From a virus: a stretch of DNA of 35,234 nt. The DNA is taken from positions 1-35,234 of the IMG/VR virus record IMGVR_UViG_3300035188_000731; one strand, 5' to 3'. A model generated the notes under the pieces. It saw only the letters and a list, made by a program, of their open reading frames with translations, was not told where the DNA came from and made no database searches. The translations under genes were made by a program, and so were the position numbers. Positions 625 through 31,405 of the stretch are shown in pieces. Position 1 is the first letter of the stretch. Every line of letters begins with the position of its first letter.

Positions 625-2112
625 ATGGCACAGCAAACCATCAATGTCGGAACGTCCCCCAATGACGGGACGGGAACGCCGCTGCGTACGGCTTTCCAGT
701 ACACGAACAGCAACTTCAGCGAGCTGTACACGGCTGTCGGCCCGAGCGGCAATAACATCGTCGTACCGGGAACCGCCACCATCACCGGCGATCTGACGGT
801 GGATACGAACGTGTTGAAGGTGGACACGTCGAACAATCGGGTGGGTATTTGTACTGCGAGTCCTGCTCTTCCGTTTGTTGTTTCAAATGCTGGAGCGCAA
901 GGATTTGAAATCAATCCTACTGGATCGATTATTTCTGGTGGCATTGATATCCTTTCGTACAACCGATCAACCTCACTTTACAAAGGGGCTGGTTTTGGTG
1001 CTGAAAGCTATCTTTTCAGGATTGGAACAAGCTCCCTTTCCGACGCCATGACCCTGAACGCGACGGGGCTGGGCGTGGGGGTTACGCCGACGCAGAGGTT
1101 TCATATCAAACTAGACCAGAACGCATACACATACGCTCGTGTTGAGAATCAAAATACGAGTTCTGGAGCGTTTGCCGGTTTGATGCTCGCGGCATCTGGC
1201 AACACTTGGGGCATCGCCAACGGATCGACTGCCGCGAACTCAAACTCGCTTGCGTTCTACAACGATGCCGGTGGAACCAATTCGGTCAAAATGTTGATCG
1301 ACTCCTCCGGCAACGTCGGCGTGGGGGTTACGCCGAGTGCGTGGACTATTGGCAAAGCGATTGAGGTTGGTGGTGTTGGAAACGCTTTGTGGTGGCCCGC
1401 TTCTGCCGATCTGCGGGTGATGAACAACGCCTACTTCGCATCCAGCCAGTACAAGTACGGCGTGACTGGTTACGCTGGTATGTACCAGCTTCAGAATGGC
1501 CAGCATCAATGGCACAACGCCCCCAGCGGCACCGCTGGCAATCCTATCAGTGGTGCAAATGCATTTGTCCAAGCAATGACGCTCGACGCGAGCGGGAATC
1601 TTCTTCTTGGTGGAACCAGCCAGATTGCTTCTTGCCGAAGCTCAATCACGAATGCTGGTGGCGATCAACTCGCCATCAACGCGACGAACACCAGCACTGG
1701 ACAGTCCGCCATCAAGTTCTGCAATGCTGGCACCGCTTACGGTTACATCTGGTGGGACAAGTCTGATTCTCGTTTGTATGTCCAGAACACCAGCGGCGGC
1801 GTTTATCTCGCTTCTACTGCAACTTCTTGGACCGCGAACTCGGACGAGCGTCTGAAGGACATCATCGAACCGATCAGCAACGCTGTTTCTAAGGTTGGTT
1901 CGCTCCGAGCCATCATCGGAAAGTACAAGAACGATCAGACCAACACTCGCCGCTCGTTCCTGATTGCTCAGGATGTCCAATCAGTTCTTCCCGAAGCGGT
2001 CGATGCGTCGAATCCCGATCAGCTTGGCGTGGCCTACACGGATGTTATTCCGCTGCTGGTTGCCGCCATCAAGGAACTCACCGCCCGTGTTCAAACTCTT
2101 GAAGCTAAGTAA
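625..2112 (+). CDS. Tail fibre/spike with C-terminal S74-type intramolecular chaperone
   Basis: The product has 495 residues. Residues 1-35 (QQTINVGTSPNDGTGTPLRT, then NSNFSELY) are a common N-terminal attachment segment of phage fibres. The shaft carries repeated turns such as NNRVGICTASP, GLGVGVTPT, SSGNVGVGVTPS and ASGNLLLGGT. The last 90 residues are a peptidase S74-type chaperone: SDERLKDIIEPI, SFLIAQDVQSVLPEAV, YTDVIPLLVAAIKEL. In this family the domain trimerises the fibre and cleaves itself just before the serine of the SDxRLK motif, here Ser406. The mature fibre would then end near residue 405. The fibre presumably binds the host surface. It is followed four bases later by a small DUF7936-like gene. 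Confidence 0.88.
   Translation: MAQQTINVGTSPNDGTGTPLRTAFQYTNSNFSELYTAVGPSGNNIVVPGTATITGDLTVDTNVLKVDTSNNRVGICTASPALPFVVSNAGAQGFEINPTGSIISGGIDILSYNRSTSLYKGAGFGAESYLFRIGTSSLSDAMTLNATGLGVGVTPTQRFHIKLDQNAYTYARVENQNTSSGAFAGLMLAASGNTWGIANGSTAANSNSLAFYNDAGGTNSVKMLIDSSGNVGVGVTPSAWTIGKAIEVGGVGNALWWPASADLRVMNNAYFASSQYKYGVTGYAGMYQLQNGQHQWHNAPSGTAGNPISGANAFVQAMTLDASGNLLLGGTSQIASCRSSITNAGGDQLAINATNTSTGQSAIKFCNAGTAYGYIWWDKSDSRLYVQNTSGGVYLASTATSWTANSDERLKDIIEPISNAVSKVGSLRAIIGKYKNDQTNTRRSFLIAQDVQSVLPEAVDASNPDQLGVAYTDVIPLLVAAIKELTARVQTLEAK
1072..1336 (+). repeat. In-frame 19-bp direct repeat in the fibre shaft
   Basis: The 19 bases GGCGTGGGGGTTACGCCGA occur at 1072-1090 and again at 1318-1336. They are 246 bases (82 codons) apart and in the same frame, each encoding GVGVTP in a shaft turn. 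The exact nucleotide identity suggests recent duplication or gene conversion between shaft repeats rather than protein-level similarity alone. Confidence 0.8.
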
Positions 2113-3587: not shown

Positions 3588-3620
3588 ATCCCCCGGTGGT
3601 AATGAAAACCATCGGGGGAT
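3588..3620. terminator. Bidirectional intrinsic terminator between convergent units
   Basis: A 13-bp stem pairs ATCCCCCGGTGGT (3588-3600) with ACCATCGGGGGAT (3608-3620), with one G-U type mismatch and a 7-base loop. T-rich runs flank it on both sides: AATTGTTTTA after it on the plus strand, and ATTTTCGTTT after it on the minus strand. It lies in the 51-base gap between the ends of the lysis operon and the scaffold gene, so it can stop both. Confidence 0.88.
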
Positions 3621-4811: not shown

Positions 4812-5144
4812 TTAGTACGATTTCTCAAAAGTCGCTTCAGGTTCTTTCGCTGTTTCAATTACGGCCAATTTACGGAGGTTTTCAAGACAATGCGCGTAGC
4901 CAGCGGTTACACCGGCAGCGAAAATAATGTCCGATTCCTTGCTGCCATGAGACGGCATCGGCACCGGAATTGACTCCGATACGATTCGAATAGCCATCCG
5001 AAGGATCGGATTCCTCATAATCGCAGCAAGCTCAGCCTGTTGGCCATCGTTCTGCCAATCGCTCAGGTTTACTTCAGGCAGATTCAGCAGATCCTGCTTC
5101 GTCTGATTGCTTGGGTTCTTCGTCAAGCCTCTTAGCCAGTTCAT
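4812..5144 (-). CDS. Small conserved phage protein between portal and scaffold
   Basis: The 110-residue protein has LLNLPEVNLSDWQNDGQQAE, LAAIMRNPILRMAIRIVSES, and a C-terminal helix DIIFAAGVTAGYAHCLENLR. I recall similar small proteins just upstream of scaffold genes in other phages, but no function is known to me. Its start lies 71 bases inside the end of the propeller gene, and the scaffold start follows 11 bases after its stop. Conserved patches and position make it probable. Confidence 0.6.
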   Translation of the reverse strand: MNWLRGLTKNPSNQTKQDLLNLPEVNLSDWQNDGQQAELAAIMRNPILRMAIRIVSESIPVPMPSHGSKESDIIFAAGVTAGYAHCLENLRKLAVIETAKEPEATFEKSY

Positions 5145-6429
5145 TGTATTTAGACTTCTTGTTTCGTTTCAGTTTGTGCCGCTCGGGAATCGGATCGAGA
5201 ACGTCCACCAGGGTCGGCGGGTTCTCCTTGTTGACCACATCGCGCTTCGGTCGAATCACCTTCGTCACCTCAAGCAAGTCGGCCAGCGGCAGCTTCATGT
5301 AGCCGCAATCGACATCGTTGATGCCGTAAGAAATGACAAAGTTGTTCTTCGCGCTGTCGAAGAAAGCACCGCACGGGAACACGACCGCTGGCAATCCCGG
5401 CCACCAGTCTTGCTGATTCGTGCCGGTGAGAAGCGGCAACGTCGTCATTCGAACGATGCGGAACGGAGCTTTGGCTTCAAAGGCGTATGCTCCCATGTAA
5501 TACCGGCGTTTATTGTTGATCCATGGCAGCGAGCTGTGGAAGAAGGTCCAGTACAGGCCGTCGCAGAGAATGGGGTTTGTTCCGCCTCGAACCTCGCCGA
5601 ACTTCCAGAGGGGATTGAACTCGTCGGTGACGTACTCAGCTTCCTTCTCTAACCGCCCGTTGAGGCGCACAACGACATGAGGATTGGCCGAATACACCAT
5701 ATGCGGCGCGTTGTCGTGGACGAAGTAGAGCCAGTTCTTCTCATGGCCATCGTTGATCATGGCCTGCGCGTAGTTGTTGCCGTAGATCGGATCGAAACGG
5801 CCAACGTTCAGGAACTGCTTATCGAGCAGGAACATCGCCTGATGCGCGTAGCTCTTGAACGGAACGAACGTGCAGCAGCTAATGCCGTACTTATCGCCGA
5901 ACTTCACGACACGCGGATCTTCGAACTGTTCGTTCGGGTAGCTGGCCGTGAGCTGGAGGATCGACTTTTTTGTGGCTCGTAAATCTTTACTCAGCTCGAA
6001 GGCAACGATGTCGTTCTTTTCGACGTAGACATCCTCGTCCTTCTCGCGCTTGTTGCGGCAGCGACGGGCGAAGAGCATGATTCGTCCATCTGCCTCCTGC
6101 ATGATGGCAGGGTTGAAGTAGTACGTCCCGGTTTCAGCCGGTAGAACGATTTTGCCAACCTCCCAATCGGTCTGTTCGGCCAGCTTGGGGACATCATTTT
6201 TTGCGTAGCTCATTAGAAACTCGGCTGCAAATTTGACTTCATCGTACAGTGAAAGCCAATGATCGCGCTCCTCGCGGACCTCGGTGAGATGCTCCTCATG
6301 CTCCTTGGTGCGAATCTCCAGCGTTTTGCGGAGGTCTTCGATCTGCATGAGAAGATCGGCATGACCATCGCCACCATTGGCGAAGCGTTTAAGAGCCTTG
6401 AGGCTGATATCTCGGATGATGTCTCTCAT
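5074..6429 (-). CDS. GH130-like five-bladed propeller glycosidase/phosphorylase homologue with N-terminal coiled coil
   Basis: The 451-residue protein has a coiled coil at about residues 24-70 (LLMQIEDLRKTLEIR, EHLTEVREERDHWL) followed by a propeller with GH130 family landmarks: FNPAIMQEADGRIMLFARR (105-123), FEDPRV (169-174, with the characteristic Asp171), EKNWLYF (230-236), RGGTNPILCDGLYWTFFHSS (281-300) and YYMGAYAFEAKAPFRIVRM. GH130 enzymes cleave or phosphorolyse beta-mannosides. This divergent branch may act on another sugar or only bind it. The C-terminal tail is charged and overlaps the next gene by 71 bases. A GGAG about ten bases upstream supports the start. The gene lies in a glycan cassette inside the head operon. 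Confidence 0.7.
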   Translation of the reverse strand: MRDIIRDISLKALKRFANGGDGHADLLMQIEDLRKTLEIRTKEHEEHLTEVREERDHWLSLYDEVKFAAEFLMSYAKNDVPKLAEQTDWEVGKIVLPAETGTYYFNPAIMQEADGRIMLFARRCRNKREKDEDVYVEKNDIVAFELSKDLRATKKSILQLTASYPNEQFEDPRVVKFGDKYGISCCTFVPFKSYAHQAMFLLDKQFLNVGRFDPIYGNNYAQAMINDGHEKNWLYFVHDNAPHMVYSANPHVVVRLNGRLEKEAEYVTDEFNPLWKFGEVRGGTNPILCDGLYWTFFHSSLPWINNKRRYYMGAYAFEAKAPFRIVRMTTLPLLTGTNQQDWWPGLPAVVFPCGAFFDSAKNNFVISYGINDVDCGYMKLPLADLLEVTKVIRPKRDVVNKENPPTLVDVLDPIPERHKLKRNKKSKYNELAKRLDEEPKQSDEAGSAESA

Positions 6430-6442
6430 TTTTATGCGCTCC

Positions 6443-7042
6443 TCAGTCTGGAATCTCAGTTTCGAACTGATCTGCCACCCTTGGAAGAATGGAGTAAGAG
6501 TTCAAAAGATGCCTCGTTTTGAAGTAGATAAGCAAATCAATGTGGGCAGAAATTTCGGCGGTTGTTTCCAGCAGCGGTTTCAGCGCTTTCCTGCGGACAA
6601 TGTAAGCGTGAGTGCAGAGCGGATGGCATCGATACAGGTTGTGGCCAACCTGCTCTTCAACACGCCCGACGGAGCAACATGAACCGACAAAGATCATGTC
6701 CCAATTTTCTGGAACTTCTTTCAGCGCAAGATCGACAGCAGCTCGCCATCCATCTCTGAAAACAACATCGTCCTCAAGAACCAGCCAGTAGTCATCCTCC
6801 CTGGTCATCTCAAGCGCGGACCAGAGCATGATGTGTGACATCGTGCATCCGACATGCTTTGAGCAAATGTAGTATGGATCTAGTCTGTTATCCTCGATGT
6901 ACGGAATTGTTGCCTTAAGCCCAGATTTTTCACCGTTCAATCCATGGAAGAACCGATAGTCTTCAATTCCAGCTTTCTTGAGGCTCTCGGTGACAAATTT
7001 AATCCGCTTAGATCCGCGCTGGGTGATGACGATTGGAATCAT
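6443..7042 (-). CDS. Glycosyltransferase family 25-like (LPS-type) protein
   Basis: The 199-residue protein has the GT25 layout: IPIVITQRGSKRIKFVTESL at the start, FFHGLNGEKSG, GCTMSHIMLWSALEM (66-80) and the acidic motif VLEDDVVF (88-95, E90-D91-D92) that binds the metal and nucleotide sugar, then ENWDMIFVGSCC. GT25 members transfer galactose or related sugars in LPS outer core or onto proteins. The predicted location is cytoplasmic. Its start overlaps the stop of the upstream methyltransferase (ATGA), and the propeller gene begins 13 bases after its stop. The acceptor is unknown: host surface glycan or a virion protein. Confidence 0.8.
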   Translation of the reverse strand: MIPIVITQRGSKRIKFVTESLKKAGIEDYRFFHGLNGEKSGLKATIPYIEDNRLDPYYICSKHVGCTMSHIMLWSALEMTREDDYWLVLEDDVVFRDGWRAAVDLALKEVPENWDMIFVGSCCSVGRVEEQVGHNLYRCHPLCTHAYIVRRKALKPLLETTAEISAHIDLLIYFKTRHLLNSYSILPRVADQFETEIPD

Positions 7043-7659
7043 TTTTTAGTCTTCTGGTAGATCGAAAACACGCTTTCCTTTAGGTCGTACCGTTGAACCA
7101 GCGTACAGTATTTCTCCGCGAATCGGATGGCTGTTTGCGTGGATTCCCAGTTCACATCGTCCATGATCAAATAGCCGCCAACCTTGAGCTTCGGAAGCCA
7201 GTTGACGACATCGCTCGTAGAAGGCCATTCGGCGTGGTTGGCATCGATGTGAACCATATCCATGTCGGGCAGAGAGCGTGAAGCATCCCAGCTCGACATG
7301 CGGCAGAACTGAATGTGACGGACAACCTGCGCGCGGACGGTGTGTCCAACGAAGGCTTCGTAATGACCATCGAGGTCGAGCTTGGACCACCATTCCTGAT
7401 TGCCGCTCACCTCGTCGTCGATGCAGTCCTCTTTCTTCCAAGAGTCGATGGCGTAAACGGTTCCGCTACCGTTCAGCTTGCAGGCGTAGGCCAGCGCGAG
7501 CGTTGACTTGCCTTCGAAGACGCCGACTTCGGCGATTCGTTGTGGCTTGTTGTCGATAACGAGTTTTCCAATCTCGAATCCCTTTTCTGGATCGCACCAG
7601 CCGCCCATTTTCGGGAACTGTTCGGAGACGAAGTTTTTAAGCGCGTCATGCGTTGTCAT
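7039..7659 (-). CDS. Class I SAM-dependent methyltransferase (Methyltransf_24-like)
   Basis: I place the start at the ATG at 7659, which overlaps the upstream stop (ATGA). This gives 206 residues beginning MTTHDALKNF; the longer reading adds a basic, uncharacteristic leader. Motif I is AEVGVFEGKSTLALAYA (44-60). The acidic end of the next strand is YAIDSW, a later strand is MVHIDANHAEW, and GGYLIMDDVNW follows. This pattern fits the Methyltransf_24 group often found with sugar-modifying genes. The probable reaction is O-methylation of a sugar, made in the cytoplasm; the substrate is inferred only from neighbours. Confidence 0.75.
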   Translation of the reverse strand: MTTHDALKNFVSEQFPKMGGWCDPEKGFEIGKLVIDNKPQRIAEVGVFEGKSTLALAYACKLNGSGTVYAIDSWKKEDCIDDEVSGNQEWWSKLDLDGHYEAFVGHTVRAQVVRHIQFCRMSSWDASRSLPDMDMVHIDANHAEWPSTSDVVNWLPKLKVGGYLIMDDVNWESTQTAIRFAEKYCTLVQRYDLKESVFSIYQKTKK

Positions 7660-8222
7660 TTTGGGTGGATGTAGGTGACTGATTTTCTGAACAGCGGATT
7701 GGTGAAAACCTTGATGACCGTTGCCCGTGGCCAACACAAAGGTTCAGCAACGATGCTCAGCGGCCTGTACTGACCGTTCTTGATATCGTTCGATGCCGGA
7801 GGATGCTCGTTCACAACAAGCGCCGACTTGTGTCGGGACGAGATGATTTCAAGGATTCTTCGGCACTCAGAAAACTCCAGATGCTGGAGAACATCCTTGA
7901 TGTGAACCAAGTCAAAGGACTCGGTGATGTTCTCAATGTTTTCGTTGCTGATGTCAGCTTTTGCCGGAGCTTTTGACCTCGCAAGAGATGTGGCAACTGG
8001 GCTGATGTCGATGCCCTTGTATCGAACTCCAGACAGGTCAACCATCGACATCAACTGCCAATCTCCACAGCCGATATCCAGAATCGACTTGATCGAGTTC
8101 TCTCGAATGAACGAATTGAGGAACTTGACGTATTTTGCGGTGTTGGACGGATGCGAACCAGGACCGGAACCACCGTTCCATTCGTCAGTCAGGTAGATTC
8201 GATCAAAGATATTTTGAAGCAT
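7656..8222 (-). CDS. Class I SAM-dependent methyltransferase
   Basis: The 188-residue protein shows SAM-binding motif I SILDIGCGDWQLM (46-58), a second strand YKGIDISPVATSLAR with the ribose-binding aspartate, and FDLVHIKDVLQHL as motif IV. The N-terminal GGSGPGSHPSNTAKYVKFL is typical of methyltransferases found in glycosylation clusters. It overlaps the glycosyltransferase gene before it by 20 bases and the next methyltransferase by four. A sugar or lipid substrate is likely from context, but a protein substrate cannot be excluded. Confidence 0.75.
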   Translation of the reverse strand: MLQNIFDRIYLTDEWNGGSGPGSHPSNTAKYVKFLNSFIRENSIKSILDIGCGDWQLMSMVDLSGVRYKGIDISPVATSLARSKAPAKADISNENIENITESFDLVHIKDVLQHLEFSECRRILEIISSRHKSALVVNEHPPASNDIKNGQYRPLSIVAEPLCWPRATVIKVFTNPLFRKSVTYIHPK

Positions 8223-8934
8223 GCAGGCAGTAGGTGTTTTCGCGTTTCAAAATTTCATTCTCGGTAAGCGCGCGCATCTTCTGATCGTGATAGGTGCGCC
8301 ACAGGTGGGCGATGACACATCCATCGAGAGAGTGGATTCCCTCCCAGTATTTGTAAGAGCCGCAGTGGATAAACCCAAGCATTTCGAAGTCAACCGACTT
8401 GGCTAAGCCGGGGTTTTCGTTGTGGATCTTCAGCGGATATTGAACCGAAATCTCGTTCCATCCGCTGCCGTCAAACTCCTGCCATTTCTGAAGCCACTTC
8501 CATTGGAATCGGCTGTGCATCTGCGAGAACATCACAGCGTTGCAAAGCCCAATCGTCGGCTCGTTGCCGCAGAACTCACGGCCAATCACCGTGTCGTGGT
8601 TCAGCCAATCTTCAGGAAACGGAGCAACCGTGATTGTATCGGTGTCCGCATAAACGCCACCCATCGCATACAAGATGGTATGGCGAATAAGGTCGGCTCG
8701 ATGTTGATGCTGCGGGACATTTTTGCCGTTCCATGTCTTCGGGTTTCCAATCGGCATCACCCGAACCGGAACCTTCGCCTTCAGCTTCTCCCATTGCTCG
8801 CCGACCGGCTCATTCGGACACCACAGGAAAACGCTCCAGTCTGGATTGTTCATCCACGCCGAAGCGATTGCGATTCGCTCGCAGATGTTGAATCCGTCGT
8901 CGTGAAGACCGTGTACGAAGTGTATGTTTTTCAT
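8203..8934 (-). CDS. GT32-like glycosyltransferase with DXD motif
   Basis: The 243-residue protein begins KNIHFVHGLHDDGFNICERI. It carries the sugar-transferase DXD block HRADLIRHTILYAMGGVYAD followed by TDT, with the metal-binding D97-T-D99. Later segments are NAVMFSQMHSRFQWKWL and HLWRTYHDQ. This is the layout of GT32/capsular polysaccharide-type transferases that use nucleotide sugars. The start overlaps the portal stop (ATGA), tying its translation to the portal. It is the first gene of the glycan cassette. Donor and acceptor cannot be read from sequence. Confidence 0.8.
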   Translation of the reverse strand: MKNIHFVHGLHDDGFNICERIAIASAWMNNPDWSVFLWCPNEPVGEQWEKLKAKVPVRVMPIGNPKTWNGKNVPQHQHRADLIRHTILYAMGGVYADTDTITVAPFPEDWLNHDTVIGREFCGNEPTIGLCNAVMFSQMHSRFQWKWLQKWQEFDGSGWNEISVQYPLKIHNENPGLAKSVDFEMLGFIHCGSYKYWEGIHSLDGCVIAHLWRTYHDQKMRALTENEILKRENTYCLHASKYL

Positions 8935-11180
8935 CCCTGACGCGCCAAGTTCGACTCAGCAGTTGCGTTCGCTCGTTGAATGTCCGCCGTCGTCTTCGCA
9001 TTCCGGCGAGCCAAGTCGGCCATCGCCTTCGTGTTCTGACGCTGAATGTTGGCCATAGTCTCGGCGTTCTGGCGAGCGATTTTCGATTGAACTTCCGCGT
9101 TAAGAACAGCGGTCTTCGGATCGACACCCTGCTGAATCGCCATCGCCTGCTGTTGCTGCGCCATCGCTTGAGCTTGCTCCTGAATCAACTGTCCAAGCTG
9201 TTCGATAGTCTGGCTAAGCATCTGGAGCTGCTGCGTGTAAGCCTCGACCTGCGGACGCCGCGTAGGATCAGTGGACAGGCGTTGCAGATGATCCTGAACG
9301 TGCTGACCGATGCCCTGAAGGAAGAGGACAATCTCTTGCGGATTGCCACCCTGCTGGAGCGATGAAGCAGCTTCGTTCGCAGCCGCCAGATGCGTGTCGA
9401 TGTGGACGATGTGATTCTGCGTATCGGTGACGACCGCCATGTTGCCCTGGCGCAGCGAGGAATGTTCGAGGACAGCCAGAGCGGTCTGATCCTGAATCTT
9501 CGAAGTCTGCAACTGACTCGGCAGATACCGATCAACCATCTGCTGGCCAACCTGAGCTGCGATGTAGTCCTGCAAGAGGTTAACCTTGCCACCCTCGGGG
9601 AGAGAACCGAGCAGGCCGAGGAGCGAGCCAAGAAGCTGCTGTTTAGCGAACTGAGAACCTTGGCCAACAGTACGAGTCGCTTCGACGTAATCGATGTCGA
9701 GCATGGCCTGAACCGGAACGCCACGCTCTTTGCATCGACGCTGGAACTCAATCGCGTCCTTATCCGAGCGGGTAATCGGATTCAGATTGGGATTCGAAGC
9801 GCGGCGATACCGTTCCTCGAAGAAAGAATCGAGCTGCGCGTAATACCGGCTCAACTGCGTCTTACCGATTGCTGACTGCTGTGCCACGATGGCCTGGACT
9901 TCGGTGGCAGTTCGGGGATTGCCGGTCGGCTTGTTGAGCGATTGGCGGTACTGAGAGAGATTGCCTTGAAGAACATTTTCAAGGTCCGCGTTGACCGCCA
10001 TAGGAGCGTCCAGAACGCCAGCAATGTTCTGCTGGATGACCTCGTAGTCGGGCGGAAGTATCGCATACGGTCCTTGCTGAACGACGCTCGTCTTGCTGAG
10101 CGCATTGGGGTTGAGCGGACGGAACAGGATCTGGGTGCGAGCGAACGCGCTATCGACCATCGAGCAGCGCAGACGATTCTTCAGCTCCATCGCCTGAAGC
10201 ATCTTGATTCCCAAGCCTTTGACGCCGTGATGCTCGCCGTCACCACGGTCGTAGTACATCGGATGAATCACCTGCTCCCACTTCTTGAAGCGGCGGAGCT
10301 TGCGATACATGAAGTCCTGGCTGTCACGCTCATCGATGATGGCGTGGCTGATCTGACCATCGAACTCCTTGTAGAAAACGTGGCACATCAGCACCACCTC
10401 GGAACGAGCCGAGAAGGTAATGTCGTTCGAGCGAAGCTGGCGCTGGAAGAACTCCCAGTCGTACTGAACACCGGAGCGATACGGCTCGGGCATCGCAGCT
10501 CGGATACGCTCACGAACGTAATCGACATTCCAGCCAGCAGCACGGGCAGCTTCCTCATCCTGAATCTTCTCGAACAGGTCATCGACACCCATGCGAGTGC
10601 GGACGCAGGCCACCTTCCAATCGCTGACATTCGACTTGGTGCCATCGGGGACGAGAAGATCCGTCGCCATGATGGCCTTGCAGCGCCAGTTGGTATTGTC
10701 TTCGAAGATCAGCGGACCATCGCCAATGAGAACCATCTCGCGCTGAGAGAGCTGCACGATGTAATCGAAATCCTTGTCGAGCTTTTGAAGCCGGTCGAAC
10801 TCCTCGGTGATGATCTTCGACCATTCCTCCCGCTTATCCATGTCGTTGCCGTAAGCGGTACGGACATTCGCGTAGGTCGGAACCTCAGCGAAGACATCGT
10901 AGAAGGCAGACATGGCCAACGTGAGGAACGCTTCCGACTCGCGGAAGTTCACATTGGTTCGGAACGCCTGATTGTTACGGCGCAGTTCGGAGGGGTTGTA
11001 CGGAGGATTGCCATCAACCAGACCGCGCAGCTTAGCCCGAGTATTGTTACGAAGCTCGTCGGCCATGATGAGCTTCTGGAAGATTTCACGGGCCGATGCC
11101 GCGTCGGCTATGCGCGTCTCTGGCGCTTTACCGTCTTCGTTGAGGGTTTCAAGCGGCAGTTGGGCTATTGATCCGTACAT
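8931..11180 (-). CDS. Portal protein
   Basis: The 749-residue protein forms, by family expectation, the dodecameric ring at the packaging vertex. It has a helical N-terminal region (AREIFQKLIMADELRNNTRA), a wing/clip region with FRTNVNFRESEAFLTLAMSA and SQREMVLIGDGPLIFED, a long stem-like part (MELKNRLRCSMVDSAFARTQ) and a Q-rich C-terminus (EQAQAMAQQQQAMAIQQG). Its length suits podovirus-type portals. The last 45 residues form four 11-residue repeats. The gene lies between the cysteine-rich gene (16-base overlap) and the glycosyltransferase gene (4-base overlap). I infer the portal role from length, order next to the terminase and sequence style. Confidence 0.82.
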   Translation of the reverse strand: MYGSIAQLPLETLNEDGKAPETRIADAASAREIFQKLIMADELRNNTRAKLRGLVDGNPPYNPSELRRNNQAFRTNVNFRESEAFLTLAMSAFYDVFAEVPTYANVRTAYGNDMDKREEWSKIITEEFDRLQKLDKDFDYIVQLSQREMVLIGDGPLIFEDNTNWRCKAIMATDLLVPDGTKSNVSDWKVACVRTRMGVDDLFEKIQDEEAARAAGWNVDYVRERIRAAMPEPYRSGVQYDWEFFQRQLRSNDITFSARSEVVLMCHVFYKEFDGQISHAIIDERDSQDFMYRKLRRFKKWEQVIHPMYYDRGDGEHHGVKGLGIKMLQAMELKNRLRCSMVDSAFARTQILFRPLNPNALSKTSVVQQGPYAILPPDYEVIQQNIAGVLDAPMAVNADLENVLQGNLSQYRQSLNKPTGNPRTATEVQAIVAQQSAIGKTQLSRYYAQLDSFFEERYRRASNPNLNPITRSDKDAIEFQRRCKERGVPVQAMLDIDYVEATRTVGQGSQFAKQQLLGSLLGLLGSLPEGGKVNLLQDYIAAQVGQQMVDRYLPSQLQTSKIQDQTALAVLEHSSLRQGNMAVVTDTQNHIVHIDTHLAAANEAASSLQQGGNPQEIVLFLQGIGQHVQDHLQRLSTDPTRRPQVEAYTQQLQMLSQTIEQLGQLIQEQAQAMAQQQQAMAIQQGVDPKTAVLNAEVQSKIARQNAETMANIQRQNTKAMADLARRNAKTTADIQRANATAESNLARQG
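8943..9074 (-). repeat. Four 11-residue (hendecad) repeats at the portal C-terminus
   Basis: Portal residues 703-746 are four consecutive 11-mers: RQNAETMANIQ, RQNTKAMADLA, RRNAKTTADIQ and RANATAESNLA. Arg is fixed at position 1, Asn at 3, Asn/Asp at 9 and Ile/Leu at 10. Eleven-residue periodicity is typical of right-handed coiled coils, so this could form an extended helical barrel on the portal. Confidence 0.85.
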
Positions 11181-11794
11181 GGTCGTTTTTTCCAGCAGTG
11201 GGCCGGAAGGTTTTTGTTCTCTGTAGCGTCTGTAAATTTATGGAGCGTTTCAATGGGAAACCACACCATGCTCCTGATAAAGCAACCGCAAAATTCGCAG
11301 CTTTGCAGGCTTTCGTCTAGGGGTGTGCTGCCATGCTGAGAAAAAGTTTTTACCGCTTCTTTCAGCACCCGAGCATTGCATCCGGTGCATCCGAGCGGTT
11401 TGCGGTTGTACATGCAGCTCGAGCAGATCGACGCCCTTCGCGTCGCTTCAGCCTGATCGACTTTGCCTCCGCCAACGGTCAACCCATGAAGCAAACTCAT
11501 GCTGAAGCGGATAACATCGCCAATCTGGAGCGATTTACGGCCTTCAGGCTTTGGAATTTCTACCTCGTTGAACGCGCAATCTGCACCGTTACGACACGCA
11601 TACTCGGTGATTAACGTGTCGAGATTGGACGGGATAGGTATCGCGTTGGCCGTGTAATGGTTACGAACGAACTCATGGAGTTGCGGCCATGATCCGCCCA
11701 TGATTTCAATGCCGGTTTCGGGGACGCGATAATGCCATCCGCCAGGGATGACCATGTGTTCGTTCAGGACTTTGTATCCGGTGACTTTGCTCAT
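11165..11794 (-). CDS. Cysteine-rich, probable zinc-binding protein of unknown role
   Basis: The 209-residue protein has a beta-rich N-terminal half (VIPGGWHYRVPETG, GGSWPQLHEFVRNHY) and a C-terminal half dense in cysteines: ASICSSCMYNRKPLGCTGC, then SCEFCGCFIRSM and a late CWKKRPC. The CxxC-x(8)-CxxC and CxxCxC groups would suit two structural zinc sites. I recall similar proteins between terminase and portal genes in other uncultured phages but no assigned function. It overlaps both neighbours (terminase stop by four bases, portal start by 16), so it is produced with the packaging machinery. A packaging or portal-assembly accessory is an inference from place only. Confidence 0.65.
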   Translation of the reverse strand: MSKVTGYKVLNEHMVIPGGWHYRVPETGIEIMGGSWPQLHEFVRNHYTANAIPIPSNLDTLITEYACRNGADCAFNEVEIPKPEGRKSLQIGDVIRFSMSLLHGLTVGGGKVDQAEATRRASICSSCMYNRKPLGCTGCNARVLKEAVKTFSQHGSTPLDESLQSCEFCGCFIRSMVWFPIETLHKFTDATENKNLPAHCWKKRPCTDQ

Positions 11795-13467
11795 AAGTCG
11801 TCGTAATAGATTGAATCAGCGTCTCTAACGAGCTTTTCCCAAACTTTATCCATCTTGGTTGCTCGCGGTTCGAGGACGGCGGTTTTGCGGACTAGATCAA
11901 GCAAGACTACAGCAGCGTCGGCCAAGTCAGGCGATTTTCCGGTGCGCTGCTTCATCACGGTCTTGGATTCGACCGATATCTTCCGCTTCGAATCATCGAA
12001 CATGCGCGAGCAGAACTCTTGCAGCGTCTCGATGTCCGCTCCGCCAATACGCTCCTCGATGACCCATTTCCGCATCGAGAACCAGAGTTCCGTCACCTTC
12101 CGGTCGTACGCTTCATTGCATGGCCGACTATCCTCGTCGCTGACCGGAATGGTTGATGGGGAACCGCCGAACTCGACGCGATGAACCACGCCCCACTCGC
12201 GGGTCAGAATGTCGGCCAAGCCGCCTCCTTCACCGCTTGAATCCAGACCAAATTTGTCCGGTGCAACGCCGCGCTTGGCGCATTCCTCTTTAACCCGATT
12301 GGCTATCTGATAATGCACCGGCTCCGTTAGCTGAGCGTTGACGGATATGTGGATGATGTCCTGAAAAAGTATGCTGACCTTGTCGTTTGCGGTGCCAACC
12401 TTGGCAAAGCGAAGGATACATCTGTCGCCACCGAAACCAGGATCGAGAGCAGCCACCTGCTCGACATTGGTCGTGAACGTCAACTTTCTCGTAGGCGTGT
12501 GCGTCTCAATCAGCGACTCGGAAAGCACCGTTTTGACCATACCGTCCGGCGCCCAGAATCCGCGCGTGTACTTCCAGAATGTAGGGCTTTGTTCGCCCTC
12601 ATGTCGCATAGCGGATAACACCTGATCATGCGTTATGAGGTATGGATACTTTGTCCGCCCTTCGCTGATGTTCGGCGACTTCATGCCGTCGAACCGTCGG
12701 CACATGCCGCGCTCGGTCAGCCAATGTTGATCTTCAATCGTGACGCTGCGCCAACCCTTTGCCGGTGTGCAGAATCGACCGTGCGGATCGTACTTCGAAG
12801 CGGGGTTTCCGATGACCAGCATCTTGAACTCGCGGCAACCCTTGGAAAGGTTCGTGCAAGCCTCGAAAGCCGCTTCGGGCGTATCCGTCGCTTCGTCGAT
12901 GATGACCATCACTCGCTCGGCGTGGATACCCTGGATGTTGGCCACAGCCTTCGCCGTATTACCTTCCGCGACAGCAATGGCCGATATCGAGTGCCGGTCG
13001 TCACCTTTGATAGCCTGCAAGGCCATCTTCGAATCGACCATGTTGCCAGGGAATCCGCGCGACTTACGGACCAGATCTTGAAGATTGGCCCACATACGCT
13101 TGCGGATCATCTTTGCGGTCGTCGAGGTTAGGACAACGGTGGACTTGGAAGGATTGGCCAACCACCAGACGGTAGCGAAAAGAGTCGCTCCGAACGTCTT
13201 GCCGGACGCGCCGCATCCAGCCCAGCCGACATAATCATGCTCGCAGAGACTTTCGACCTGAGCTTCCAGCCATGGATTCCAGCTCAGCTTAGGCCAAAGC
13301 ATCTTGGTGGCGTTAACAAAATGGTCGAAAGTGCCTAAACCACCCTCGTTTGGCTGGAGCCGGTTTCGGAATGCGTAAAGTTCCAGTTCTAGGTCTGGAA
13401 TCTTGACGGGTGAACGTATCCCGTACTTATGCTGAATCAGTGGATGCTCGGACGCTTGCTCTGCCAT
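11791..13467 (-). CDS. terL: Terminase large subunit
   Basis: I take the start at the ATG at 13467 (MAEQASEHPLIQ, 558 residues); an upstream ATG at 13533 would overlap the divergent fibre gene and adds an unlikely leader. The ATPase has Walker A GCGASGKT (84-91), Walker B VMVIIDEA (186-193, D191-E192) and a coupling-type region KMLVIGNPAS. The RNase H-like nuclease has VAALDPGFGGDRC (Asp342), FGLDSSGEGGG (Asp409) and SPDLADAA (Asp514/Asp517). It drives DNA into the procapsid through the portal and cuts the concatemer. No small subunit is recognisable in the window. Confidence 0.93.
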   Translation of the reverse strand: MAEQASEHPLIQHKYGIRSPVKIPDLELELYAFRNRLQPNEGGLGTFDHFVNATKMLWPKLSWNPWLEAQVESLCEHDYVGWAGCGASGKTFGATLFATVWWLANPSKSTVVLTSTTAKMIRKRMWANLQDLVRKSRGFPGNMVDSKMALQAIKGDDRHSISAIAVAEGNTAKAVANIQGIHAERVMVIIDEATDTPEAAFEACTNLSKGCREFKMLVIGNPASKYDPHGRFCTPAKGWRSVTIEDQHWLTERGMCRRFDGMKSPNISEGRTKYPYLITHDQVLSAMRHEGEQSPTFWKYTRGFWAPDGMVKTVLSESLIETHTPTRKLTFTTNVEQVAALDPGFGGDRCILRFAKVGTANDKVSILFQDIIHISVNAQLTEPVHYQIANRVKEECAKRGVAPDKFGLDSSGEGGGLADILTREWGVVHRVEFGGSPSTIPVSDEDSRPCNEAYDRKVTELWFSMRKWVIEERIGGADIETLQEFCSRMFDDSKRKISVESKTVMKQRTGKSPDLADAAVVLLDLVRKTAVLEPRATKMDKVWEKLVRDADSIYYDDL

Positions 13468-13521
13468 AGTTTGGCCTTGCAATAGTTCACTCTGGACTTG
13501 ACCGTCTGGCAAAGGAAAAAT
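13468..13521. promoter_or_regulatory. Divergent control region between head and tail units
   Basis: This 54-base gap separates the terminase start (minus) from the fibre start (plus), so late transcription should begin here or come from further upstream on each strand. I see no convincing -35/-10 pair for either direction. AAAGGA about five bases before the ATG at 13522 is the only clear ribosome-binding signal. Minimal space suggests overlapping promoters or a phage-specific element. Confidence 0.35.
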
Positions 13522-14724
13522 ATGCCGTCGCAACTTGTTTCTTCATCCGGCTGTTGCCAGCCTTGCGACTCCGAGCCGGTTGTCGTGAATATCCCCGGCC
13601 CTCAAGGTCCGGCTGGAACCAACGGCACCAATGGAACGGACGGAATTGACTCGTTCACCTACACGACCGCTCCGTTTTTTGTCCCTGCTCTCGGTTCGAG
13701 TGTCCTCGTTTTCGTTGATAATACCGAATTTCTACCGGAATCGGTTGCTGGCCAGTTCTTCGTCTCGATTCAGGGTCTTGGATACATGCAGGTGCTGTCG
13801 GTTGACGGCCTGCAACTGACGCTTCAAAACCCCGCTGCGGGTGTCCTGGGAATCGCCAATGCTATTCCTACCACCCTGATTCCGACTAATTCCCTTATCA
13901 CTCTGGCTGGTGCGATTGGGGCGACTGGCGCTGCTGGTGCATCGGGCGGCGCTCCGGTTGGCGCGTCGTACATTTGTCGCACTTCAGACGCCACGCTGAC
14001 GAACGAGACTGCTCTTGATTCGTTGTCGGCTGGCTATCTCAAGACTCAAGGATCGGGCGGTTTTGGTGCTGTTTCCACGGTTGCCACGATTCCGATTGCC
14101 GATGTCACCGGCACGGTTCCGATTGCCAAGGGCGGAACGAACCTGACGACCGCTCCCGCAAACAAGATTCCGGTTGGCGACGGCTCGACCTATCTCCAGA
14201 AGGAGATTGTTGGAACGTCTCCGATTGTTGTTACGAACAGCGCCGGAAACATCACACTGTCGGCTCCGTCGATTGTCCCGTTCAGCTACGTCACGTTTAC
14301 GCGGAGGTTGACCGGAACTAACCTGATTGCGTCTGGAACAACCAAAAATCCGTTTAGCCTTACAGATTTTCCTTCTGGATCTTGGGCAAACTTAGATCCG
14401 TCTTCTGGCTTTGTTGCCGCGACTGGTCGATTTGTGGTTCCGTACACTGGATACTACAAAATTGAAGGTCTGTTCAATCTTCTTGGTAGTGGCGGCGTTG
14501 CTCGGGTTGTTGTTTTCTTGCGGAAAAATGGGTCAAATATCTTTCAAACGCTTGATTTCAACGCCACTAACGCATCCCCACAATCGTTGCCTGCTGTGTC
14601 GTTTTCTTACGTCGATCAGGCGTCTGTAGTTGGCGATTACTACGACATCTTGATTCAGACAACTTCACACGATGTAATCGTCGAAACCGGCTCCTCATTC
14701 TCTGTCCAGCGTATTCAGGCTTAA
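13522..14724 (+). CDS. Fibre protein with collagen-like tracts and C1q-like C-terminal domain
   Basis: ATG 13522 with AAAGGA upstream is preferred to the TTG eight codons earlier; it gives 400 residues. A cysteine-containing N-terminus (SSSGCCQPCDSEPV) is followed by six Gly-X-Y triplets at 26-43 (GPQGPAGTNGTNGTDGID), a beta domain (VPALGSSVLVFVDNTEF), a second short Gly-X-Y tract near 130-143 (GAIGATGAAGAS), the fibre motif IAKGGTNLTTAPANKIPVGD, and a jelly-roll-like C-terminus (ATGRFVVPYTGYYKIEGLFN, NGSNIFQTL, VGDYYDILI) like C1q/TNF trimer domains. It is probably a trimeric host-binding fibre. It is the first gene of the tail unit. Confidence 0.78.
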   Translation: MPSQLVSSSGCCQPCDSEPVVVNIPGPQGPAGTNGTNGTDGIDSFTYTTAPFFVPALGSSVLVFVDNTEFLPESVAGQFFVSIQGLGYMQVLSVDGLQLTLQNPAAGVLGIANAIPTTLIPTNSLITLAGAIGATGAAGASGGAPVGASYICRTSDATLTNETALDSLSAGYLKTQGSGGFGAVSTVATIPIADVTGTVPIAKGGTNLTTAPANKIPVGDGSTYLQKEIVGTSPIVVTNSAGNITLSAPSIVPFSYVTFTRRLTGTNLIASGTTKNPFSLTDFPSGSWANLDPSSGFVAATGRFVVPYTGYYKIEGLFNLLGSGGVARVVVFLRKNGSNIFQTLDFNATNASPQSLPAVSFSYVDQASVVGDYYDILIQTTSHDVIVETGSSFSVQRIQA

Positions 14725-23433: not shown

Positions 23434-23622
23434 ATGGACAAGATGAAACTTGGTGGTGGCGGGCGTTACGAAAAGCTGATCGGCAGTCTTGAGAAGAAGG
23501 GTGTGCGCGATCCGAAGGCTTTGGCCGCATGGATTGGCCGTTCTAAGCTAGGTAAAAAAAAGTTTCAGTCTTTGGCGGCAAAAGGCCGTCGCCGAGCGTT
23601 GCGCGAGAAAGCCAACGCTTAA
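23434..23622 (+). CDS. Small basic conserved phage protein
   Basis: The 62-residue, Gly- and Lys-rich protein reads GGGGRYEKLIGSLEKKGVRD, PKALAAWIGRSKLGKKKFQS, LAAKGRRRAL. The GRxxKLxxxLxxKGVxDPxALAAWIGRxKxGKKxFQ pattern is common in phage genomes and may bind nucleic acid, but has no assigned role that I know. It starts four bases after the previous stop. Its TAA overlaps the TAA of the convergent HNH gene within TTAA (23619-23622). Confidence 0.65.
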   Translation: MDKMKLGGGGRYEKLIGSLEKKGVRDPKALAAWIGRSKLGKKKFQSLAAKGRRRALREKANA

Positions 23623-24380
23623 AGTTGGACCAAGCAGCCTTTGCTGCTGTGGATCAGCTTGTGGCACGGAACGCAAACGGTGACTCCGTTTGCGACATCA
23701 TATCTTTTGTCTGGATGGTCTTTCCAGGAGAGGATGTGGTGAGCATGGAGCCTTGAAGATCCGCTGGTACATAGTTTGTTCATGCACTTGTAGGAGTCTC
23801 TTGAAAACACGGACTTCCTCCACTGAACGTACTCTGTCCTTCCCATGTCTGCATGCCTTTCAGTGCCGTAGGTTCCGCCTTTCCAGTTAGGATTATTTTC
23901 ACCGCGCATGTATGGCCTTGGCTTTCCAGCTATTGCCATGGAAATTGATTTTCCTCGATGCTCGCAGTAAACTCCGCTCAGCATTGCAGCACGAACTTTT
24001 TCACTGTTTTGATATCTCCATTTTCCGGCGCAACTAAGTCCGCAAAAATCGTCAGTAGCATCTTTCATCTGTTTTCCACAAAACTTGCAAACGCAGCATT
24101 TCTGGCATCGAATTCTGCTTCCAGATTTTGACTCAAACTTTTGAAAACATGTGTCGCATGTTTTAACAAAAATCCGTTTGTTTATTACTTCTTGTATCTT
24201 TGTGTTATTATGAAAATTGAATTTAGCAGAGCATTTTTTTGAACAAAACTTGTGTCCGAAACAGCGGTTTTGATTTCCACACTGAACGCACTTTCTGCAA
24301 TCAAAACATGTCTTTTTTGCCCCACTTTCGGCGATAAATTCATTCCCGCATTTCTTGCACTTGAGATTGAACTGGCGCAT
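23619..24380 (-). CDS. HNH homing endonuclease with multiple zinc-ribbon motifs
   Basis: The 253-residue protein has a string of Cys pairs in its N-terminal half (CKKCGNEF, CFDCRKCVQCGN, CSKKC, CDTCFQKF, CQKCCVCKFCGK, FCGLSC), a NUMOD3-like ENNPNWKGG segment, and an HNH nuclease core: SRDSYKCMNKLC, LHAHHILSWKDHPD, NGVTVCVPCHKLIHS. Homing endonucleases of this kind cut related phage genomes to spread their own gene. The coding region is clearly richer in A and T than both neighbours, which suggests recent transfer. It lies 36 bases past the primase-helicase stop, at the junction of the early and tail units. Confidence 0.85.
   Translation of the reverse strand: MRQFNLKCKKCGNEFIAESGAKKTCFDCRKCVQCGNQNRCFGHKFCSKKCSAKFNFHNNTKIQEVINKRIFVKTCDTCFQKFESKSGSRIRCQKCCVCKFCGKQMKDATDDFCGLSCAGKWRYQNSEKVRAAMLSGVYCEHRGKSISMAIAGKPRPYMRGENNPNWKGGTYGTERHADMGRTEYVQWRKSVFSRDSYKCMNKLCTSGSSRLHAHHILSWKDHPDKRYDVANGVTVCVPCHKLIHSSKGCLVQL
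23672..23694. other. Perfect hairpin inside the HNH coding end, possible termination or pause site
   Basis: CGCAAACGG (23672-23680) pairs exactly with CCGTTTGCG (23686-23694) around a five-base loop. It lies about 50 bases beyond the last plus-strand stop, where the tail unit would need to end, but no T-run follows on either strand. It also encodes the conserved NGVTVC of the HNH core, so the dyad may be a coding accident. Confidence 0.35.
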
Positions 24381-30480: not shown

Positions 30481-30761
30481 GCTTTCACCTCCTGCTCACG
30501 CCACAGCAGCAGATCGGCGCGGAGAGCGTCGTTCTCTCGCTCTAGTTGGGTGATGCGCTCATTGGCACTCTCAAGATCCTGATAGGCGTTCACCTTGTCG
30601 ATGTTTTCGACGGTACAAAGCGCAGATTCCAAGTTCTTGATGCGCTCCTTCGCCACGTTGAGTTCGCGTTCGAGTTGTCGAGCTACGTCAACATCTACGG
30701 TTGGATAACCATCTCCTCCATCTGGTTTCCACGCTGCATCCGTCCTCGGTGTATCGCTCAT
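30477..30761 (-). CDS. Coiled-coil phage protein with SDTPRTDA start
   Basis: The 94-residue protein begins SDTPRTDAAW and continues VDVARQLERELNVAKERIKN, ANERITQLERENDALRADLL, a clear left-handed coiled coil. Short proteins with this opening are frequent in phage early regions, with no known role. The start has AGGAGG upstream, and its ATG overlaps the ThyX stop. Confidence 0.65.
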   Translation of the reverse strand: MSDTPRTDAAWKPDGGDGYPTVDVDVARQLERELNVAKERIKNLESALCTVENIDKVNAYQDLESANERITQLERENDALRADLLLWREQEVKA

Positions 30762-31405
30762 TTCGCCTCCTGCAATGCGTTGTGAATGTGCGGAAACTCG
30801 ACAGCGAAGATCGTGTCGCGGATAGACTCGGCGATGCGGCGATGCTCAAGCTGAGTACCTTTAGCGCACCTCTGCTCAAGATAGTGAATCCATGAGCGGA
30901 TGTTGCCGGTCATGTACAGCGTTGTTCGAGTAGCGAGCGGAAGAACCATGCGAGCGGTTTCGCGGCTCACGCCTTCCTGCAAGAGCGAGCGGTACGTCTT
31001 GAACGCCAGATCGATTGATTTGGCCATGGCGTCCATAGCCCAGTCCTGAGCGTATGTATCGCCACTGGCCTGACGGTTCTTCAGATCCTGGGTGCGGAGT
31101 TCGACAGGTTCAGCTTCATCAATCGGCGCATACCGTTGGCTGAATTCTTGGAAGCAGAAGCTGCGGTGTCTGATGATCTGGGCGGATATCGCTCGGCTCG
31201 TCTGAATCTCGACGGTCATGCTCGCCTGTTCGAAGATGCTCCAATGGCCGTGTTTGATGCAGTAGGCCAGTAGTTTTGGAGCGGTGAGCAAGCTCATCTG
31301 ATTCGACGGATTGCTGACACGGGCGGCGAACGTGATGAAGTCGGATGCGGTCAGATTACCGTCGCCGACAAGGGGTTTGGTGATAGCTACAAGTTTGACT
31401 CTCAT
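30758..31405 (-). CDS. thyX: FAD-dependent thymidylate synthase ThyX
   Basis: The 215-residue protein has the ThyX signature RHR-x7-S as RHRSFCFQEFSQRY (R79-H80-R81, S89, R91-Y92). Other typical blocks are FAARVSNPS, KHGHWSIFEQASMTVEIQTS, and the C-terminal NIRSWIHYLEQRCAKGTQLE. ThyX methylates dUMP to dTMP with flavin and methylenetetrahydrofolate, boosting thymidine supply during phage replication. It acts in the cytoplasm as a tetramer. A 70-base gap separates it from the DUF669-like gene. No Shine-Dalgarno sequence precedes the ATG. Confidence 0.95.
   Translation of the reverse strand: MRVKLVAITKPLVGDGNLTASDFITFAARVSNPSNQMSLLTAPKLLAYCIKHGHWSIFEQASMTVEIQTSRAISAQIIRHRSFCFQEFSQRYAPIDEAEPVELRTQDLKNRQASGDTYAQDWAMDAMAKSIDLAFKTYRSLLQEGVSRETARMVLPLATRTTLYMTGNIRSWIHYLEQRCAKGTQLEHRRIAESIRDTIFAVEFPHIHNALQEAK

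Follow-up and report, generated by a model that had tools for sequence, protein, structure and literature searches.

A candidate serotype-like locus of exchangeable glycosyltransferase and methyltransferase genes in the packaging and assembly unit of an uncultured phage

Introduction

Why does a phage carry sugar-transferring and methylating genes among its packaging and assembly genes, and why do close relatives carry different ones at the same site? The question is raised by a virus record of 35,234 bp (IMG/VR record IMGVR_UViG_3300035188_000731), referred to here as the window, in which the genes of two glycosyltransferases (GTs) and two S-adenosylmethionine (SAM)-dependent methyltransferases (MTs) lie on the minus strand between a portal-like gene and a gene encoding a GH130-like protein (Table 1). 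Few cases of glycosylated phage virions are known, and what the modification does in nature is unclear. An earlier note on this DNA described the five genes, GH130-like gene included, as one cassette locked in a head operon. The coordinates, the strand and the families (GT32, two SAM methyltransferases, GT25 and GH130) agree with profile matches. The single locked cassette had to be given up, as comparison of 73 distinct regions identified the four transferase genes as an exchangeable allele and the GH130-like gene as its fixed neighbour. Whole cassettes or single slots are replaced between near-identical phages. We consider it somewhat probable that this is a serotype-like exchangeable glycan-modification locus within a packaging/assembly unit, with a virion protein as the likeliest acceptor.

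Exchange of the cassette between close relatives

The relatives are IMG/VR contigs retrieved with the portal-like and GH130-like proteins as queries; all are uncultured and known from environmental sequence. Presence of both flanking genes was the criterion for including the 73 distinct portal-to-GH130 regions. The set would therefore miss any phage without the GH130-like gene, and contigs with a portal gene and no GH130-like gene stop too early to judge. An alignment scan and a second portal scan for deeper relatives returned essentially the same clade; one alignment containing a wrong row of 33 aa was left out of the analysis. The order portal-like gene, some cassette, GH130-like gene, small open reading frame (ORF), scaffold-like gene is found in every contig long enough.

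Homology to the window ends at position 8929 and resumes at 6429 in five relatives (L003, L005, L007, L013 and L023), apart from a diverged MT2-GT25 pair (module B). Relative L003 is 95.6% identical to the window over the stretch that begins with the gene of the large terminase subunit (TerL) and closes with the portal stop codon; identity is 95.2% over the stretch between the start codon of the GH130-like gene and the scaffold-like gene. The cassette of L003 lacks the GT32-MT1 pair and consists of a module B that has diverged to about 72% DNA identity, plus another module absent from the window. The same pattern was found in L005 and L007. In L013 and L023, no DNA in common with the window was detected inside the cassette. 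The borders of the swap are codon edges, mostly between CGCGWCAGGGA and TRA on one side and at ATGARAGAYAT on the other. The locus therefore resembles a serotype locus in having conserved flanks and alleles that are non-homologous or strongly diverged between close relatives.

A tree of 66 portal genes requires at least 25 changes of cassette architecture, compared with 34-41 when the labels are shuffled. Portal pairs at 95-97.5% identity have the same architecture in 43% of cases. The portal genes of L266 and L040 are 99.7% identical and their cassettes are different, and different cassettes also occur within one metagenome (3300002835; L037 versus L061). The median dN/dS is 0.05-0.09 in all cassette families (portal 0.060, GH130-like 0.086), and the cassette families are under strong purifying selection. 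The catalytic motifs are intact across these families, which together with the low dN/dS indicates that the alleles are working genes.

Gene content and order of the cassettes

Nine gene families in ten architectures were identified in the 73 regions. Families F1, F4 and F8 belong to GT25 and F5 to GT32, whereas F9 is GT-A-like and resembles EpsD; families F2, F3, F6 and F7 are methyltransferases. Most of this content is arranged as two-gene modules, each of one GT and one MT, namely A (F5-F6), B (F2-F1), C (F3-F4) and D (F8-F7), and some cassettes hold a GT or MT standing alone. The architectures are B-C (27 regions), A-B (15, the type of the window), A-D (9), F9-C (8), F5-D (5), B (4) and B-C-F7 (2), with F5-F6-F8, F1-C-F7 and F9-F2-C occurring once each. 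All obey one slot order: A or F9, then B, C and D, which corresponds to a GT32-MT pair or single GT, two successive MT-GT25 pairs and a GT25-MT pair. Every cassette contains at least one GT25 and at least one methyltransferase. Homologous phages lacking the block, which the earlier note would have taken as contrary evidence, did not turn up: the site is occupied in all 73 regions, but its gene content varies from relative to relative.

The GT32 protein of the window has both the PF04488 match and the DXD motif. GT25 membership is indicated by the PF01755 match, and the acidic EDD motif is kept in F1, F4 and F8; the best PDB relative of the window GT25 is 9crz, glycosyltransferase R655 (1.3e-6). 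No segment near membrane hydropathy was detected in any cassette family. The ORF list gives a GTG start at 7737 for MT2, but its homologues share the ATG at 7659. As the earlier note had observed, all junctions overlap except one: the portal-like and GT32 genes by ATGA at the portal stop, GT32 and MT1 by 20 nt, and MT1/MT2 and MT2/GT25 by 4 nt each, the sole gap being the 13 nt between the GT25 and GH130-like genes.

Table 1. Coordinates of the locus and its flanking genes in the window
Feature	Position	Strand	Evidence
Stem-loop, 13 pairs, candidate terminator closing the unit where two genes converge	3588..3620	.	just past the scaffold-like gene
Scaffold-like protein, 390 aa	3628..4800	-	position and composition only
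Small conserved ORF, 110 aa, overlaps the GH130-like gene, exact start uncertain	4812..5144	-	kept in relatives
GH130-family five-bladed propeller with N-terminal helical region, right homology arm	5074..6429	-	PF04041
Exchangeable cassette, swapped as a block in close relatives	6430..8930	-	homology breaks, 73 distinct regions
GT25 glycosyltransferase, family F1, module B	6443..7042	-	PF01755 3.6e-14; EDD motif
MT2, SAM methyltransferase (Methyltransf_24), family F2, module B	7039..7659	-	PF13578 2.2e-19
MT1, SAM methyltransferase, family F6, module A	7656..8222	-	Methyltransf_11 PF08241 8.8e-9; motif DIGCGDWQ
GT32 (DXD glycosyltransferase), family F5, module A	8203..8934	-	PF04488 3.8e-12; motif GGVYADTDT
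Portal-like protein, 749 aa, forms the left homology arm for cassette exchange	8931..11180	-	position after TerL
TerL (large terminase subunit), opens the unit	11791..13533	-	PHROG 2 terminase, 6.7e-23

The GH130-like protein

The GH130-like protein is present in all relatives with enough sequence, with at least 81% identity across the clade. It matches PF04041 with 44.4 bits (cut-off 26), residues 84-390 aligning with positions 17-319 of the 320 in the profile, that is, with the whole propeller; 42 of 42 homologues tested match the same profile. The motif E170-D171-P172-R173 (EDPR) is invariant among the homologues, and its aspartate is taken here to occupy the catalytic acid column of GH130 enzymes. 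The nearest solved GH130 proteins are remote (matches to 5b0p, 1vkd, 7fip and 4udg; best PDB E value 2.4e-5). The N-K-D and H-R-P motifs of GH130 phosphorylases presumably supply the basic residues of the phosphate pocket. In a remote alignment with 5b0p these positions are held by A221 and D239, which makes ordinary phosphorolysis doubtful as judged from the sequence. A role as a GH130-fold transferase or in glycan binding is possible; GT108 is a transferase family with the GH130 fold.

The profile PHROG 28262 (phrog_28262, 765 positions) is matched by the GT32 protein near its N-terminus and by the propeller nearer its C-terminus (8611-8706 and 5668-6012 of the window, both on the minus strand). 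Both matches are short. The presence of both proteins on one profile suggests a GT32-propeller fusion in another phage, which would tie the two to a single pathway.

The packaging and assembly unit

The unit runs on the minus strand in the order TerL, 209-aa protein, portal-like protein, GT32, MT1, MT2, GT25, GH130-like protein, small ORF and scaffold-like protein. The identity of its members in relatives is 86-98% for TerL, 88-99% for the portal-like protein and 67-100% for the small ORF, which the GH130-like gene overlaps by 71 nt. The name TerL is supported by a profile, whereas the names portal and scaffold are given from gene order and composition. The portal-like protein has no PHROG, Pfam or PDB match in profile and PDB searches, and the scaffold-like protein has no reliable family match in the same three collections. 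With the two names read in this way, the cassette stands in a portal-like/scaffold-like position in all relatives, so that the GT genes lie in or beside structural genes. The placement between portal and scaffold that the earlier note had given is correct in order, except that the small ORF intervenes before the scaffold-like gene. Its term head operon suits the presence of TerL, portal-like and scaffold-like genes, but not the candidate capsid gene, which lies on the opposite strand in relatives.

The stem-loop that follows the scaffold-like gene (Table 1) and the low number of promoter-like sites in the region (2, compared with 5.3 in shuffled sequence) fit a single long transcript, and the coupling of the cassette to the packaging/assembly transcription unit, as previously noted, is upheld. 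The ATGA overlap would also couple translation of the cassette to that of the portal-like gene. The window is probably incomplete, because the long relatives measure about 45-48 kb. A cysteine-rich conserved protein of 209 aa to which no family was assigned is encoded between TerL and the portal-like gene (11165-11794, minus strand).

Possible function of the locus

From these genes we infer, as the earlier note did, a methylated glycan on the virion. Transcription would be late, and the cytosolic cassette enzymes would draw on host sugar nucleotides and SAM and build a short O-methylated oligosaccharide. The ever-present propeller may perform a constant step (transfer or trimming of a core sugar, or acceptor docking via its N-terminal helical region), and the cassette would decide the outer sugars and methyl groups added next. 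The likeliest acceptor would be a conserved virion protein made simultaneously, in which case a cassette swap would alter the particle surface with the proteins unchanged. The benefit could be escape from whatever recognises or traps particles. A broader proposal can be put forward only tentatively: the locus may be the phage counterpart of a bacterial serotype locus, in which circulating GT-MT modules, slotted behind the portal gene in a set order, give otherwise near-identical virions chemically different methylated sugar coats and a dedicated GH130-fold enzyme supplies the constant step.

A suitable acceptor may be a candidate major capsid protein (MCP) of 415 aa, named from its size and place, which is encoded in the 45-kb relative L159-L161 (L159:11296-12543). 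It has no family, PDB or named-phage match and is conserved at about 87-100% over the cassette types; being near constant, it would offer a constant acceptor. The window appears to start just past this gene. The comparison of cassettes with tail fibres for co-variation had no power, as similar fibres occur in just 4 of 1128 pairs. The gene at 625-2112 (plus strand) encodes a tail fibre or spike whose C-terminus carries a Peptidase_S74 chaperone domain, and in relatives the fibre region is even more variable than the cassette. Beside TerL, a protein with short collagen-like G-X-Y repeats is encoded (13522-14724, plus strand). This collagen-like fibre was ruled out as the obligatory acceptor, because several relatives without it still carry cassettes. 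In some relatives (L250, L253, L288 and L246) it is replaced by an unrelated-looking protein of 140 aa, which constitutes a second exchange site.

Several points weigh against a glycan on the virion. The candidate MCP gene lies outside the unit of the cassette, past the fibre genes and on the other strand; the virion acceptor is putative; and the late timing is presumed from gene content. Structure models for the propeller and the portal-like protein (AF2) are poor, each with a mean pLDDT of 39.5, probably because the alignments hold close relatives only. The hint at a host is also weak: a clade fragment (L228, propeller 87% identical) lies in a metagenome-assembled genome labelled Nitrosomonadales, where a binning error is possible. 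Finally, GT25 and GT32 also include lipooligosaccharide and other surface-glycan enzymes, and F9 resembles the exopolysaccharide enzyme EpsD. During infection the enzymes could instead alter the surface glycans of the host, such as its lipooligosaccharide core or a capsule precursor, which would block superinfection or prevent progeny from adhering to debris, and the swaps would track how host glycans vary. Conflict between phages and hosts is known to target variable surface glycans (PMC12143481). This explanation is rather unlikely, however, as no cassette encodes a flippase, carrier-lipid transferase or membrane protein, in contrast to gtr seroconversion clusters, and the site among packaging and assembly genes would imply late expression in a seemingly lytic phage, when little of the surface could still be rebuilt.

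It is improbable that the cassette serves anti-restriction or takeover by glycosylating and methylating the DNA of the phage or some other target in the cytosol, for instance a host protein. DNA-modifying phage glycosyltransferases are known (Pyle et al. 2024, as cited in PMC12619734), and one PHROG hit by both MT2 and F7 bears the name DNA methyltransferase, but this match spans the generic SAM fold only. The families GT25, GT32 and GH130 act on sugars or protein glycans, and no genes for modified-base synthesis were seen in the partial annotation of the window and the 45-kb relative. The GC content of the cassette, somewhat lower than that of the flanks (about 0.50-0.52 versus 0.53-0.57), would suit a general cargo (moron) site that collects unrelated genes by chance, with a glycan theme and no common function. 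Such a site is very hard to reconcile with 73 of 73 regions containing GT and MT genes only, in one order, never empty, adjoining the GH130-like gene and under purifying selection. A defence system was rejected, as the only matches were weak methyltransferase-domain matches to mad2.

Comparison with known systems

Phage enzymes that glycosylate virions are already known, as is the pairing of GT and MT for virus glycans. In mycobacteriophages Che8, Corndog and Myrna, virion glycosylation has been described (Freeman et al. 2023, cited in PMC12363180 and PMC12619734). The likeness lies in phage-encoded glycosyltransferases and a glycan on a capsid or tail protein, which is demonstrated there and proposed here. 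In what the citing papers relate of the three phages, a slot-ordered exchangeable GT/MT cassette with a fixed GH130-like gene is not described. The a64r product and capsid glycans of chlorovirus PBCV-1, together with mimivirus glycans, provide examples of a viral GT joined to an O-methyltransferase domain and of virion glycans that contain methylated sugars (PMC4691112). The same viral pairing of GT and MT is seen here, and among solved structures the window GT25 is closest to mimivirus R655; these, however, are eukaryotic giant viruses with fused domains, and not modules exchanged at one site.

A phage-borne system of exchange is represented by the gtr seroconversion clusters, exchangeable glycosyltransferase genes that produce serotype variety. 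These are prophage-borne, encode membrane proteins and act on host O-antigen, in contrast to the present cassette, which has no membrane segments and lies in an assembly unit; the membrane flippase and membrane transferases of gtr clusters are absent from all cassette families. Bacterial capsule and O-antigen loci share with the phage locus conserved border genes, non-homologous alleles and purifying selection within alleles, but the phage locus is much smaller (1.2-3.1 kb) and its GT and MT genes are paired. The GH130 glycoside phosphorylases share with the phage protein the whole-propeller profile match and the EDPR motif, from which it differs in being remote, in having A221 and D239 at the basic motifs and in its extra N-terminal helical region.

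The portal gene, the propeller gene and the block were not found in any named phage among 50,697 records; similarity of the propeller to named phages is weak, and the individual relatives of GT25 and MT are distant. The locus is unreported in the open-licence papers searched. Within the reach of these searches, what is new is a cassette that is exchangeable, keeps a slot order and adjoins a fixed GH130-fold gene inside the assembly unit of a phage. A natural series of near-identical phages with different glycan genes, in which the borders are precise and the module grammar is simple, would make it possible to ask what purpose particle glycans serve and what selects for their variety. The locus also offers small glycosyltransferases and methyltransferases in pairs, and a GH130-fold protein that is perhaps not a phosphorylase.

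Other genes of the window

An HNH-like zinc-ribbon protein, possibly a homing endonuclease (weak Pfam match), is encoded at 23619-24380 (minus strand), and no counterpart is listed at the same place in the 45-kb relative. A ThyX-type thymidylate synthase is encoded at 30758-31405 (minus strand; Pfam Thy1, 1.6e-46).

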